Below, in pieces: positions 9,970-37,961 of a stretch of 64,000 nucleotides of DNA. The stretch is from Haloarchaeobius salinus. Lineage in GTDB: Archaea; Halobacteriota; Halobacteria; Halobacteriales; Natrialbaceae. A model generated the notes under the pieces. It saw nothing but the letters and a program-made list of their open reading frames with translations, was not told the origin of the DNA and did no database searches. The DNA is taken from the NCBI RefSeq assembly GCF_024464185.1, contig NZ_JANHAU010000001.1, positions 682,001-746,000 on the forward strand, given 5' to 3'. The position numbers were made by a program, and so were the translations under genes. Within the stretch, counting starts at the first letter, position 1, and each line of letters starts with the position of its first letter.

Positions 9970-10269
9970 CAGAAAGCCCCGACGTGCTCGTCGGCTGCGA
10001 CTCGCTGTCGTTCGAAAGACGCCGGAGGCGTCTTTCGTGATGACGAGAGGGCTTCGCTCTCTCGAACCACGGTCCTCGTTCCTGCGGTCCTTGCGTCGTC
10101 TCGCTCGACGAGCACGTCGCCCCTTTCAATCCTACCCGCCCGCACAGCACCGCACCTCACACCTCCCCAGCCGACTGCGATGCTCGCTGCGCTTCTCGTC
10201 CCTCGCACGAGCGTCGGCGAGACACGCTCGCTGCGCTCGCGGTCTCGCCAGCCGCGCGCCACCCGGCTG
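9970..10269 (-). repeat. Palindromic intergenic element, copy A (full length, 300 bp)
   Basis: This is the best-preserved copy of a dispersed family in this window. On the minus strand it runs from the end hairpin CAGCCGGGTGGCGCGCGGCT to CTTTCTG. A conserved box GATTGAAAGGGG (about 10117-10128 read in reverse) is followed by a 14-bp arm at 10106-10119 that is perfectly complementary to the arm at 9980-9993. Between the arms lie the conserved core GACCGCAGGAACGAGGA and small perfect hairpins, including one of nine paired bases around 10015-10040 and GAGAGGGCTTCGCTCTCTC near 10045. No plausible haloarchaeal protein is encoded. It sits between two divergent genes. Confidence 0.8.
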
Positions 10270-10393
10270 TTCGGGTTCGTATCACTCTCAGTACAAAATC
10301 GCGCTTCAGGGAACGCCTATGGGGTGCGTGCGTCGAAAGTAGTGTGTGAGCCGCCCAGTCCTCCTCTCCGCTTCGGCCCTCCCCTCCGGCCCC

Positions 10394-13921: not shown

Positions 13922-13933
13922 CAGAAAGCCCCC
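13922..13933 (-). repeat. Solo terminal motif of the palindromic element family
   Basis: CAGAAAGCCCCC appears here alone, 45 bp before the same motif that ends element B at 13967. No inverted-repeat partner or internal module follows it. It is best read as the decayed stump of a further copy, and it shows that the terminal motif can persist by itself. Confidence 0.5.
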
Positions 13934-13966
13934 GTCATCAGTACGAACTCTCGCACCACGAACAGC

Positions 13967-14297
13967 CAGAAAGCCCCCGACTGCTCGACTACTGCGGCTC
14001 GCTGCGCTCCTCGTGCCTGCGGTGCTTGCTTCGCCTCGAACGTCGAGCAGTCGGCCCCCTTCAGTCCCACCCCACACAGCTCCGCACCTCGACCCTCCCC
14101 AGCCGACTGCGTCCCCGGAAATCGGAGATTTCCGGTGGGCTCACGAGACGCGAGCGTCTCGTGACCGCTCCTCACTGCGTTGCGGTGCCTGAGCGCTACG
14201 CGCTCAGACTCGCGGGAGCTTCGCTCCCGCGTCGCTCGCCCCTCGCGCGCTGAGAGGCTCGCGGCCTTCGGCACGCTCGCCAGCGCGCGCGCCAGCG
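13967..14297 (-). repeat. Palindromic intergenic element, copy B
   Basis: On the minus strand this copy has the conserved box GGTGGGACTGAAGGGGG, the core CACCGCAGGCACGAGGA and the terminus GGGGGCTTTCTG. The two 13-bp arms at 13977-13989 and 14042-14054 are perfectly complementary, but their sequence differs from copies A and F. Distal to the conserved part, 14111-14173 holds a 63-bp palindromic cassette identical to one found inside copy F. Further small hairpins follow (for example GAGCGCTACGCGCTC at about 14197). The distal CAGCC end hairpin was not found, so the outer boundary is approximate. Confidence 0.75.
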
Positions 14298-14300
14298 TCG

Positions 14301-14325
14301 AAAGTTTACAACTTTTGTAAACTTT
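14301..14325. repeat. AT-rich perfect palindrome (11-bp arms, 3-nt spacer)
   Basis: AAAGTTTACAA and TTGTAAACTTT form a perfect 11-bp inverted repeat around CTT. It is the most AT-rich short stretch in several kilobases and lies exactly between elements B and C, 397 bp before the UPF0104 gene. It could be an operator, a hairpin terminator or the scar of an insertion; the sequence alone does not decide. Confidence 0.7.
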
Positions 14326-14328
14326 GGA

Positions 14329-14530
14329 TGGTTCGACGACGCCGCCACCGGCCACACGGCCAAGACACCCCGCGCCGGCAGGCGCGTGGGTGTCGAGGGG
14401 GAGGGCTGGCGCGGTGCGGTCGCGGTGCTGTGCGGGGTGTCCCCGTGAGCGAGCCTGCGAGCGAACGGGGGCTCGTCGGAGCTTGCTCCGACGGTGGGAC
14501 TGAAAGCGGTGACGTGCCCGTCGAGCGAGC
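14329..14530 (+). repeat. Palindromic intergenic element, copy C (right half missing)
   Basis: Copy C lies in the plus orientation. About 150 bp (from CCACACGGCCAAGACACCCC at 14352 onward) match copy D at 27.6 kb almost base for base. At 14438-14494 it carries a 57-bp cassette (CCCCGTGAGCGAGCCTGCGA and its inverted partner, then a hairpin tipped GCTTGC) that copy F also has, and that copies A and B lack at the same junction. The box GGTGGGACTGAAAG follows at about 14492, but the second long arm and CTTTCTG terminus are absent. The remainder up to 14721 shows no gene. Confidence 0.72.
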
Positions 14531-14721
14531 CGACGTAGGCACCGGGACGGAGCGGGGAGTGCAACGGGCCACAGCCGACAATCACGTCGAACCTCGTGCC
14601 TGTCCGCGGCTCCCGCACGTCCCACGACTGTCGGGTCGTCCACCCACCCACACGCCGAGCAACCCACACTCCCGCCCGACCCAGGCGGTGGCTTCAAGCA
14701 TCCGACGGCCGACCTGTCACT

Positions 14722-27540: not shown

Positions 27541-27745
27541 CAGGAAGCCCCGCGACGCTCGACTCGGGGGGCTCGCTCTGGTCCTCGTTCCTGCGGTCCG
27601 ACGAGCCCCCGTTCGTTCGCAGGCTCGCTCACGGGGACACCCACCGCGACGGCACCGCGCCAGCCCTCCCCCTCGACACCCACGCGCCTGCCGGCGCGGG
27701 GTGTCTTGGCCGTGTGGCTGGTGACCGCGTCGCCGAACCAGCCAG
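27541..27745 (-). repeat. Palindromic intergenic element, copy D
   Basis: Copy D lies between trmY and pus10 on the minus orientation. It shares about 150 bp with copy C, including CCACACGGCCAAGACACC and the paired CCCCGTGAGCGAGCC cassette half. It retains the core GACCGCAGGAACGAGGA and a modified terminus GGGGCTTCCTGG, but the GGTGGGACTGAAAG box and one long arm are deleted. The open frames through it (for example one reading SDEPPFVRRLAHGD) recur in copies C and F because the DNA recurs, not because a protein is conserved. Confidence 0.72.
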
Positions 27746-34816: not shown

Positions 34817-34962
34817 AGTAGAGCACCCGGTTCCTCATCTGGTCGCTCTGTAGGTGGCGAACCGAGCGTCCGCTGCATCACGGCTACCGAACTCCGCTCC
34901 GCGTCGAGAGCGGTCGAGCCGGAACGGATGGCTTTACGTCCGACCGAGGCGAACCCGGAGCC

Positions 34963-36210
34963 ATGAACCCAGGCGACCGCGTCCGCGTCGAGCGGGCGGA
35001 CAGAGAGTACGAGGGCGTGTTGCTCCCGTCGTCGACGGCCGACCAGCTCGTCGTGAAGCTCGACGGCGGCTACAACGTCGGTATCGAGCGCGAGGGGGCC
35101 GAGACCGAGGTGCTGGAATCGGACGTGTACCAGATCGATGCGGCAGGGGACGAGACGGCGTCGTCGGCGGTGGAGTTCGACGAGGACCTGCCCACCGTCG
35201 CGCTCATCTCGACGGGTGGCACCATCGCGTCGACGGTGGACTACCGCACCGGCGCGGTGACCGCACGCTTCGACGCCGAGGACGTGCTGCGTGCCGTGCC
35301 GGACCTGGCGGGCCGGGCGAACTACCGGGGTCGGGTCGTCGCGAACATCCTCTCCGAGAACATGGAGGTACCCATCTGGCGGGACCTCGCCGAGGCCGTC
35401 CACGAGGAGATCGAGAACGGGGCCGACGGCGTGGTCGTGATGCACGGCACCGACACGATGCAGTTCTCGGCGTCGGCGCTCTCCTTTATGCTCGACACGC
35501 CGGTCCCCATCGTCTTCACCGGCAGCCAGCGCTCGGCCGACCGGCCGTCCTCGGACAACGTGATGAACGCGGTCTGTGCCGTCGAGGCGGCGAAGGCCGA
35601 CGCCGCGGAGGTCATGGTCTGCATGCACGCCACAGAGAGCGACGACGTCTGTGCGCTCCACCGCGGGACCCGCGTCCGGAAGAACCACACCTCGCGCCGG
35701 GACGCCTTCGAGACCGTCGGCGCGGAGCCGCTCGGAACCGTGGACTACGACACCGAGACGGTCGCGTTCCACGGCGAGTACGAGGAGCGCGGCGCGACCG
35801 ACCTCGACATCCAGCCGGACCTCGCCGAGGACGTCGAGCTGGTGAAGTTCACGCCCGGGATGGACCCCGCGTTCTTCGAGGCCTGCGAGGGCAAATCCGG
35901 CCTCGTCATCGAGGGCACCGGGCTCGGACACGTCCACAGCGACCGCATCGAGCAGCTGGAGTCGCTGGTCGACGACGGCACGACCGTCGTGATGACCAGC
36001 CAGTGCATCGAGGGCCGGGTCTGCGACCGCGTGTACGACACCGGCCGCGACCTGCTCGACGCGGGCGTCGTGGAGGGCGAGGACATGCTCCCCGGCACCG
36101 CGAAGGTGAAGCTGATGTGGGCGCTCGCGAACGCCGACGACGTGGCGAAGACGATGCGGACGCCGCTGGCCGGCGAGATAACCGAGCAGTCGCGGCCGTG
36201 GCAGGCGTGA
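34963..36210 (+). CDS. gatD: Glu-tRNA(Gln) amidotransferase subunit D
   Basis: GatD, with GatE (not in this window), converts Glu-tRNA(Gln) to Gln-tRNA(Gln) by releasing ammonia from glutamine. The 415-residue protein has an N-terminal beta-barrel AnPSA-like domain (NPGDRVRVERADREYEGVLLP) and then an asparaginase-like domain. The latter carries VALISTGGTIASTVDYRTG (about residues 83-101) and VVMHGTDTMQFSASALSFM (about 159-177) with the catalytic Thr pair, and Lys/Asp in the FTGSQRSADRPSSDN region. It is followed 2 bp later by the GNAT gene. Confidence 0.95.
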   Translation: MNPGDRVRVERADREYEGVLLPSSTADQLVVKLDGGYNVGIEREGAETEVLESDVYQIDAAGDETASSAVEFDEDLPTVALISTGGTIASTVDYRTGAVTARFDAEDVLRAVPDLAGRANYRGRVVANILSENMEVPIWRDLAEAVHEEIENGADGVVVMHGTDTMQFSASALSFMLDTPVPIVFTGSQRSADRPSSDNVMNAVCAVEAAKADAAEVMVCMHATESDDVCALHRGTRVRKNHTSRRDAFETVGAEPLGTVDYDTETVAFHGEYEERGATDLDIQPDLAEDVELVKFTPGMDPAFFEACEGKSGLVIEGTGLGHVHSDRIEQLESLVDDGTTVVMTSQCIEGRVCDRVYDTGRDLLDAGVVEGEDMLPGTAKVKLMWALANADDVAKTMRTPLAGEITEQSRPWQA

Positions 36211-36212
36211 CG

Positions 36213-37163
36213 ATGGACATCGACCGCCGCGCGGACGTCACCTACCGCCGCGCCACGCCCGAGGACCACGACGACGTCGTCGCGTTCACCAGCGACACCT
36301 GGGCCGACCGCGACGGGAGCGACTACATCCCGCGCATCTACCACGACTGGATCGAGACCGAGGACGAGTACGACGAGCAGTTCACCTGCGTCGCCGCGGT
36401 CGACGGAACGGTCGTCTCCATCGCCCAGACCGTCCTCCTCTCCGAGCGCGAGGCCTGGTGCCAGGGGATGCGCACCCACCCCGACTACCGCGGCGTCGGC
36501 ATCGGCCTGGAACTGACCCACGAGATGTGGGACTGGGCGCGCGAGCAGGGCGCGACCGTCGCCCGGAACATGGTGTTCTCGTGGAACGTCATGGGGCTGG
36601 GCCACTCCCGCGGCGTCGGCTTCGCCCCCGAGACCGAGTTCCGCTGGCTCGAACCCGAGCCCGACGCCGACGCCGAGGGACCCCTCGGGGTCACCGACGA
36701 CCCGAACGCCGCCTGGAGCTACTGGACCGACTGCGGCGCGCGCGACCACCTCGCGGGACTCGGCCTCGCGATGGACGAGTCGTGGTCCGTCGTCGAGCTC
36801 ACCCCCCAGCTCTTCGAGCGCGCCGCCGACGAGACGGCCCTGGCCGCCGTCACCTCCGGGGACGGCACCCGCGGCGTCACCTACCGCGTCCGCGACTACG
36901 AGCGCGAGGACGACGACGGCGAGAGCTACCACATGGCCGAGTACGGCGTCGCCGCCTGGGACGACATCGACGCGGCGAGAACGCTGGTCGCCGCCATCCG
37001 GCGCGACGCCGCCGACATCGGTGCCGACCGGATTCGCGTCCTCATCCCGGAGACCGTCGACTACGTCAGCGACGGCTCCCTGCTCCGCTCGGGCATCTCT
37101 GACGAACCCGATTTCGTGATGGCCGCGGACCTGACCGCCGACTACCGCGAGAACCACGGCTAG
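36213..37163 (+). CDS. GNAT family acetyltransferase
   Basis: This 316-residue protein has a GNAT fold. Motif A, YRGVGIGLELTHEM (about residues 92-105), contains the acetyl-CoA-binding RxxGIGxxL. It is preceded by strands with FTCVAAVDGTVVSIAQ and MRTHPD. The C-terminal half (RRDAADIGADRIRVLIPETVDYV) looks like a second, degenerate GNAT lobe. The substrate is unknown. The start at 36213 is 2 bp after the gatD stop and an ORF start is available at GTG 36206 too. It is probably cotranscribed with gatD. Confidence 0.82.
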   Translation: MDIDRRADVTYRRATPEDHDDVVAFTSDTWADRDGSDYIPRIYHDWIETEDEYDEQFTCVAAVDGTVVSIAQTVLLSEREAWCQGMRTHPDYRGVGIGLELTHEMWDWAREQGATVARNMVFSWNVMGLGHSRGVGFAPETEFRWLEPEPDADAEGPLGVTDDPNAAWSYWTDCGARDHLAGLGLAMDESWSVVELTPQLFERAADETALAAVTSGDGTRGVTYRVRDYEREDDDGESYHMAEYGVAAWDDIDAARTLVAAIRRDAADIGADRIRVLIPETVDYVSDGSLLRSGISDEPDFVMAADLTADYRENHG

Positions 37164-37185: not shown

Positions 37186-37591
37186 CAGCCGGCAGGCGCG
37201 CGGCTGTGCTGCGTGTCGAGCACCGCGAGACCGCAGCACGAACTCGTGCGAGGTCTTCGGGAGTGCGAGCGACCGAAGGCTTGTGAGAGCTTGCTCTCAC
37301 AGTGGATGAGCGAGGGAGCCTGCGACCGAGCGAAGAGGCTGGGGAGCCGTGAGGTGCGGAACGGTTGCGGTCGGGGGTCCCCGTGAGCGAGCCTGCGAGC
37401 GAACGGGGGCTCGTCGGACCGCAGGTCCGACGGTGGGACTGAAAGGGGCGGCCGTCTCGACGGAGGCGGCCGAAGCAAGCACCGCAGGCACGAGGAGCGG
37501 TCACGAGACGCTCGCGTCTCGTGAGCCCACCGGAAATCTCCGATTTCCGGGGACGCAGCGAGGCCCCCGAGTCGAGACGGCGGGGGCTTTC
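37186..37591 (+). repeat. Palindromic intergenic element, copy F (406 bp, longest)
   Basis: Copy F runs from hairpin CAGCCGGCAGGCGCGCGGCT to CTTTC on the plus strand. Key parts are GGTGGGACTGAAAG (ending 37445), arm GCCGTCTCGAC at 37451-37461 pairing with GTCGAGACGGC at 37571-37581, and GAAAG 37441-37445 pairing with CTTTC 37587-37591. These enclose 5-base internal segments GGGCG and GGGGG. Cassette P (37378-37433) precedes the box, and the 63-bp cassette identical to copy B's sits at 37492-37554 inside the loop. It lies between the GNAT and SAMP1 genes. Confidence 0.8.
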
Positions 37592-37658
37592 GAGATGGTT
37601 CCAGTCCTCAGTCAGTCGTCTACCGAGTCGCATCTCGAACTACCAGAACCCTCTGAAT

Positions 37659-37961
37659 CTAGCCGCCACTCACGGGCGGAAACAGCGCCAGCTCCGCACC
37701 CCCACCGAGTTCGGTCGCCAGTCCATCGGCCGTCGTGAACACGTCCACGCCATCCAGGAGGACGTTCACGTCCGGCGCAATGCCGTCGCGGGACGCCGAC
37801 CCGACTTCGTCGTCTGCCAGCACGCGCTCGCGGAGTTCGGGGTGGGCCTCGAAGAGGGCGTCGAGCGCGTCGCCGACGGTCGGGTCGTCGCTCGGGACCC
37901 GGACGACGACCTCGTCGGTGCCGGCGCGCTCCGCGATGTCCGCGAACAGCTTCCACTGCAT
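37659..37961 (-). CDS. samp1: SAMP1-like ubiquitin-fold small archaeal modifier protein
   Basis: SAMPs are ubiquitin-like proteins attached to lysines by an E1-like UbaA, and also act in molybdopterin or tRNA sulphur transfer. The 100-residue protein starts MQWKLFADIAERAGTDEVVV, has a beta-grasp pattern with VGDALDALFEAHPELRERVL and NVLLDGVD, and ends in the diglycine tail LALFPPVSGG needed for conjugation. It lies 20 bp after the TrkA-C gene and is probably cotranscribed with it. Confidence 0.92.
   Translation of the reverse strand: MQWKLFADIAERAGTDEVVVRVPSDDPTVGDALDALFEAHPELRERVLADDEVGSASRDGIAPDVNVLLDGVDVFTTADGLATELGGGAELALFPPVSGG

Follow-up and report, generated by a model that had tools for sequence, protein, structure and literature searches.

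The window analysed here, 64 kb of a Haloarchaeobius salinus contig, contains three copies (F, A and B) of a structured repeat. Copy F lies between two genes arranged tail to tail, one for a GNAT-domain protein (34854-37163) and one of the ThiS family (37659-37961, minus strand), and the CTAG that ends its tail overlaps the stop codon of the latter. A sequence-only reading of this DNA had proposed a long-range stem in all three copies, and its coordinates and letters proved right when the window was read again. The arms are 11 bp long in F, 13 bp in B (CCGACTGCTCGAC/GTCGAGCAGTCGG) and 14 bp in A (CGACGTGCTCGTCG/CGACGAGCACGTCG), unlike one another between copies and complementary within each. 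A covariance model of the hairpin (R1) recovers F, A and B in the 64-kb window, together with two weak matches that look decayed (Table 1), and the E-values of B, F and A indicate that the likeness of the three copies is not due to chance. The insert found in F between the left domain and TGGGACTGAAAG also occurs in the copies L010, L018, L035 and L046.

Table 1. Parts of the repeat copies in the window (positions are those of the window)
Feature	Position	Strand	Evidence or remark
Copy F, left-end domain CAGCCGG..GGCGCGCGG..GAGGCTGGGGAG..; layout as in other copies	37186-37374	+	By-eye alignment; boundaries approximate
Copy F, nested double-hairpin insert between left domain and TGGGACTGAAAG	37378-37433	+	Boundaries approximate
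Copy F, right-end hairpin: GAAAG/CTTTC foot, GGG/GGG internal loop, variable shaft, inner stems	37440-37591	+	R1 match, E 5.8e-16
Copy F, GAAAG foot	37441-37445	+	Window letters
Copy F, variable 5' arm GCCGTCTCGAC, 11 bp	37451-37461	+	Window letters, covariation
Copy F, nested double-hairpin insert inside apex, GTCACGAGACGCTCGCGTCTCGTGAGC and CCGGAAATCTCCGATTTCCGG	37499-37553	+	Window letters, copy alignment
Copy F, variable 3' arm GTCGAGACGGC, exact reverse complement of 5' arm	37571-37581	+	Window letters
Copy F, CTTTC foot	37587-37591	+	Window letters
Copy F, heterogeneous right-terminal tail	37592-37662	+	Ends with CTAG (37659-37662)
Copy A, hairpin, apex with nested insert	9972-10128	-	R1 match, E 7.8e-13
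Copy A, left-end domain, approximate	10129-10270	-	Locus L042 in copy alignment
Copy B, second, tandem right-end tail, 45 bp from first	13924-13968	-	Motif positions
Copy B, hairpin, short form without insert	13969-14063	-	R1 match, E 9e-22
Copy B, left-end domain with nested inserts, approximate	14064-14290	-	Locus L011 in copy alignment
Possible decayed copy, weak	14501-14595	+	R1 match, E 0.0035
Probable decayed copy, interior retained, arms gone	27544-27631	-	R1 match, E 5e-5

We have used RNAalifold to derive a consensus structure from 22 copies of this genome. The result is a single coaxial hairpin of 31 pairs, in which a GGG/GGG internal loop separates a foot of 5 bp from a shaft of 13 bp and inner stems reach up to a conserved apex; the stem seen in the letters is there, and the pairing extends to the apex, a part that had escaped the first reading. 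The loop is invariant, 12 of the 13 shaft positions are variable and the inner stems covary. Within these 22 copies 96.0% of the cells are paired, compared with 76.5% when arms are re-dealt (none of 500 re-deals was as high), and sliding the arms by 1-3 columns lowers the pairing to 35-46%. Two-sided changes are found in 19 of the 31 pairs, with a covariation score of 0.475 against 0.117 for the control.

For a wider set, end motifs alone served to pick the copies, which were afterwards required to pair at 8 or more of 12 positions, a filter that favours pairing, but which 207 out of 222 copies passed. The outcome named in the sequence-only reading as refuting it, mismatched arms in most other copies, thus did not occur, and the covariation holds in other genomes. 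The 207 copies contain 163 distinct arm pairs, Watson-Crick at 95.3% of positions versus 49.2% (sd 1.1) when re-dealt. Along the same lines, a tree-preserving null built on the R-scape principle (substitutions are scattered over the columns, with the tree and their number on each branch unchanged) gave significant covariation, over 182 distinct sequences, for 17 of the 31 helix pairs and for no other pair of columns, a result that is strong rather than perfect because the tree was drawn from short paralogues, between which segments may be exchanged. The compensatory change proposed from three copies therefore stands, far above background. The pairing of GAAAG with CTTTC is present as well, although the foot is near-invariant in this genus and so provides no covariation there; in another family (G022) it reads CGAAG/CTTCG. 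As for selection on the pairing, also part of the original proposal, the covariation makes it likely without proving it, since template switching between the arms could keep them complementary too. Covariation does not tell RNA from single-stranded DNA.

In the dispersed element to which it belongs, the hairpin forms the right end. A typical short copy consists of a left-end domain (CAGCCGGGTGGCGCGCGGCTGGCGAG...GCGCGAGGGACGAG...GGCTGGGGAGG), followed by TGGGACTGAAAGGGGC. After these come a variable arm and its complement, enclosing a conserved interior (GCAAGCACCGCAGGNACGAGGAGCGCAGCGAG), and then GGGGCTTTCTGGCTGTT with a variable tail. Both GGGRCTGAAAGGGGC, the motif of the left side, and GGGGCTTTCTGGCTGTT, that of the right, have dozens of occurrences in this genome, about 4-10 times those of reversed controls. 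Most copies are a few hundred bp long, too short for a transposase gene. The left and right ends are unlike in the half forms of the element, and in Haloarcula there are inverted pairs, composites with two opposed hairpins. Other variants include stemless copies, which fit a deletion between the GGGGC repeats flanking the hairpin, and one copy (L043) in which the interior is inverted between the arms. Double-hairpin modules are nested in the loops of the element, and their hairpins also vary in letters yet stay paired; one such module is present in one and absent in the other of the orthologues L033 and L249.

Some peculiarities were apparent at the borders. Right ends may stand in tandem, exactly 45 bp apart and sometimes 54 or 63 bp, with differing tails between them (for example G000:C1:766512/766557 and L126 1494-1674). 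In the tails past the right end, CTAG falls in a single one of the three phases in 63/71 cases, mainly in the Haloarcula-type loci L105-L184, where this tetranucleotide is far above its background frequency. The sequences of these tails differ and have stops in all frames, although their base composition has a three-base rhythm; we have rejected a protein-coding origin, as the rhythm lacks haloarchaeal codon bias and every frame is interrupted. A motif, CTTAACTAAACACTRCC, recurs in Haloarcula-type tails (L120, L130, L135 and others). On the opposite side, an AT-rich palindrome, AAAGTTTACAATATTTGTAAACTTT, is found some 50-60 bp ahead of the left end in a fair share of copies, such as L016, L017, L022, L024, L025 and L033, and at 14300-14326 of the window.

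A BLAST search with F found 45 places in this genome and the covariance model 38 matches. Of 31 relatives, 24 also gave matches to the model, the richest having 76 copies, and a sample of 197 genomes from the phylum gave matches in 34, every one of them belonging to the same order. Counts were 1-76 in most other Halobacteria tested, and the search gave none in the 157 other genomes of the phylum, outside Halobacteria. Copies with exact ends were found in Haloarcula, Halomicroarcula, Haloarchaeobius, Natrinema, Halorhabdus, Halovenus and other Halobacteriales, and the best-scoring named copies come from Haloarchaeobius iranensis. Viral contigs had neither exact hairpins nor relatives of the OB-fold protein described below. 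Two orthologous loci differ between relatives in the presence of the element: G002 and G004 lack F, their two convergent genes being separated by about 20 bp (F is reduced in G005), and the site of the copy L019 is empty in G002. Other orthologous sites retain the element and differ in arms, nested hairpin modules or terminal tails; one of them (L032/L253) has two compensatory pairs. No target-site duplication could be resolved at the orthologous sites.

Matches of the hairpin on plasmids, six in the first instance, led to a gene on the other strand coding for a protein of ~300 aa, whose C-terminal part matches OB-fold, SSB and archaeal RPA models. In the same domain-model search the N-terminal ~200 residues had no match, and no known catalytic domain was found in the protein. 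The start of the gene lies 460-565 bp from the hairpin, and homology from plasmid to plasmid is confined to ~1.7 kb, extending from the hairpin to a left end ~100-180 bp past the stop of the gene. This unit has sharp borders, outside which the genes are unrelated and differ from plasmid to plasmid. Among 12 further plasmid records, seven show the hairpin at its usual place and an eighth a fragment of it, and the protein is conserved on 152 plasmid records. The units have three kinds of left end, and one of these, that of G007 and G006, shares homology with the left end of the dispersed elements; the match (L324, E 3e-9; L325, E 6e-7) reaches significance in just two of some two dozen units, the majority having other left ends. 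There is also a second hairpin type, in many units of which the arms as taken pair poorly, probably due to a differing register. In G003 all three hairpins adjoin OB-fold genes. Of the 24 hairpin-bearing genomes tested, 17 encode the full-length protein, which the four genomes without the hairpin all lack (Fisher-type probability ~0.016, calculated by hand and ignoring relatedness); the seven hairpin-bearing genomes that miss it include the copy-rich G020 and G025, both incomplete. Halobacterium salinarum carries the protein at 80-82% identity on pNRC100 and PHS2. The minichromosomes of this species have duplicated SSB-type genes, rfa5 and rfa6, whose deletion leads to mitomycin C sensitivity (PMC5924565), and, judging from their fit to that description, the OB-fold genes on pNRC100 and PHS2 may well be these two. 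The available text of that article does not link Rfa5/Rfa6 to repeats or mobile elements, unlike the unit described here.

The closest described elements are the PATEs and SMR-A repeats of Haloquadratum walsbyi (Dyall-Smith et al., 2011; PMC3119063), likewise haloarchaeal and transposase-free, with palindromes near the ends, heterogeneous tails and small repeats inserted into the palindromes. A variable tail with a terminal oligonucleotide is a PATE-type trait also seen here (CTAG is enriched in Haloarcula-type copies), and the nested double-hairpin modules resemble SMR-A repeats in habit. However, PATE palindromes resemble IS605 transposons (PMC3119063), whereas for our element no tie to TnpA/TnpB was found and the related unit encodes an OB-fold protein. 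Arm covariation is not mentioned for PATEs in the available text (PMC3119063), and it is by such descriptions, not by sequence, that the element is set apart. REPINs with their RAYT are also dispersed hairpins with frequent inverted pairs, polarity and a relation to a single-gene unit, but here several copy-rich genomes are without a Y1 transposase, and the hairpin is long (~95 nt), variable in letters and conserved in fold. In the attC sites of integrons it is a folded single strand that matters, with foot, unpaired bases and fold conserved rather than the letters; the likeness to our hairpin would be one of working principle only.

A way to approach the nature of the folded molecule is to look at the mismatches in the arms. 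Read from left to right, G.T mismatches exceed A.C by 42:9, a bias not expected of a double-stranded cruciform, which would show none, and therefore probably a single strand folds, either of DNA or RNA. The single data sets are smaller, and for the genus of the window by itself the bias does not reach significance. In the inverted-pair composites the pooled ratio is 22:6 (p = 0.004) in place of the 1:1 predicted by one through-going transcript, and this favours single-stranded DNA of fixed polarity in each hairpin or else two opposed transcripts. The sequence-only reading had left the choice between RNA and extruded DNA open; the evidence now leans to one strand of single-stranded DNA. Empty orthologous sites, defined ends, nested insertions, the inverted interior and the lack of a constant gene orientation likewise favour an element of DNA. 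Genes around the half forms have mixed orientations, and none of 18 composites lies between convergent genes; a bidirectional terminator for convergent genes was rejected because the composites avoid such pairs.

A structured non-coding RNA family (for instance protein-binding or regulatory), whose copies spread as mobile or duplicated genes, would account for the RNA-like architecture with its internal loops and covarying inner stems, and for the tolerance of G.T above A.C, as for G-U pairs. In G022, 7 of 22 copies have a TATA-like sequence 10-25 bp ahead of the left end (e.g., L258, L263, L266, L275). In the genus of the window, however, no consistent promoter was found (5/45), there is no strong gene orientation, the opposed hairpins of the composites together retain the G.T excess, G.T pairs make up only ~2% of arm positions and an Rfam search of the window gave no match above the curated threshold, so that we hold this RNA family to be unlikely, if still to be reckoned with. 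Complementarity might also be kept by mutation without selection, if template switching during replication copied one arm onto the other. The scarcity of single-sided changes among many two-sided ones, the two compensatory pairs at L032/L253 and the ability of the interior to flip between the arms (L043) all agree with this. Such a process predicts no asymmetry of G.T versus A.C, though, and it leaves unexplained the invariant GGG/GGG loop and the covarying inner stems with conserved mismatches; we judge it quite improbable.

Hairpin ends handled in trans by a Y1 (HUH) transposase, in the manner of REPIN/RAYT, IS200/IS605 or PATE-like elements, would fit the polarity of the folded single strand, the inverted pairs and the heterogeneous tails past the palindrome, as in Haloquadratum PATEs (PMC3119063). 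Yet no Y1 transposase was found in G022 (76 copies), G025 (57) or G004 (18), and in the tnpB loci examined (six genomes) no copy forms a transposon end. This explanation is largely refuted and highly improbable for the present element, an ancestral role being possible. IS605/TnpB ends were also discarded as a source, as the two hairpins near tnpB fall outside the shared IS unit; the one in G005 is explained by the OB-fold unit. Finally, the gene and the hairpin may belong to plasmids and the chromosomal copies be scattered debris, considering the conservation of the gene on so many plasmid records, its constant distance to the hairpin and the similarity of the protein to RPA/SSB proteins. Against this, the unit is sharply bordered while the flanking genes differ among plasmids, and chromosomal copies retain both ends and their pairing; debris is distinctly unlikely.

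We consider it on balance probable, by a modest degree, that Halobacteria harbour a small, MITE-like mobile element that is non-autonomous, derived from OB-fold units and recognised by its fold, and that the stem makes up its right end. Against this explanation, conservation on 152 plasmid records is also what would be expected of a plasmid maintenance gene, and the G.T excess suits RNA equally. The elements of the window would descend from the units by internal deletion. Their hairpin end would be recognised in one single strand, with left-to-right polarity, when the folding strand becomes exposed during replication, transfer or repair, presumably as a single-stranded intermediate. Since recognition would be by fold rather than by letters, the shaft would be free to drift, provided that both arms change together, and the OB-fold protein may help by binding the folded strand. 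A bolder version, which we put forward only tentatively and think rather doubtful, is a transposable system whose only protein is an OB-fold single-stranded DNA-binding protein and whose ends are folded single strands, with arms that drift yet remain complementary, cutting and joining being left to the replication and repair enzymes of the host.

The repeat is a clear natural case of an intergenic sequence maintained by fold and not by letters, and with paralogues by the dozen in a genome and a wide choice of genera it lends itself to tests. Should the OB-fold unit be the parent, this would point to movement of DNA without a recognised transposase and might explain why SSB-type genes are duplicated on the minichromosomes of haloarchaea. 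The repeat also serves as a model in which single-strand-specific recognition of ends in archaea can be tested.
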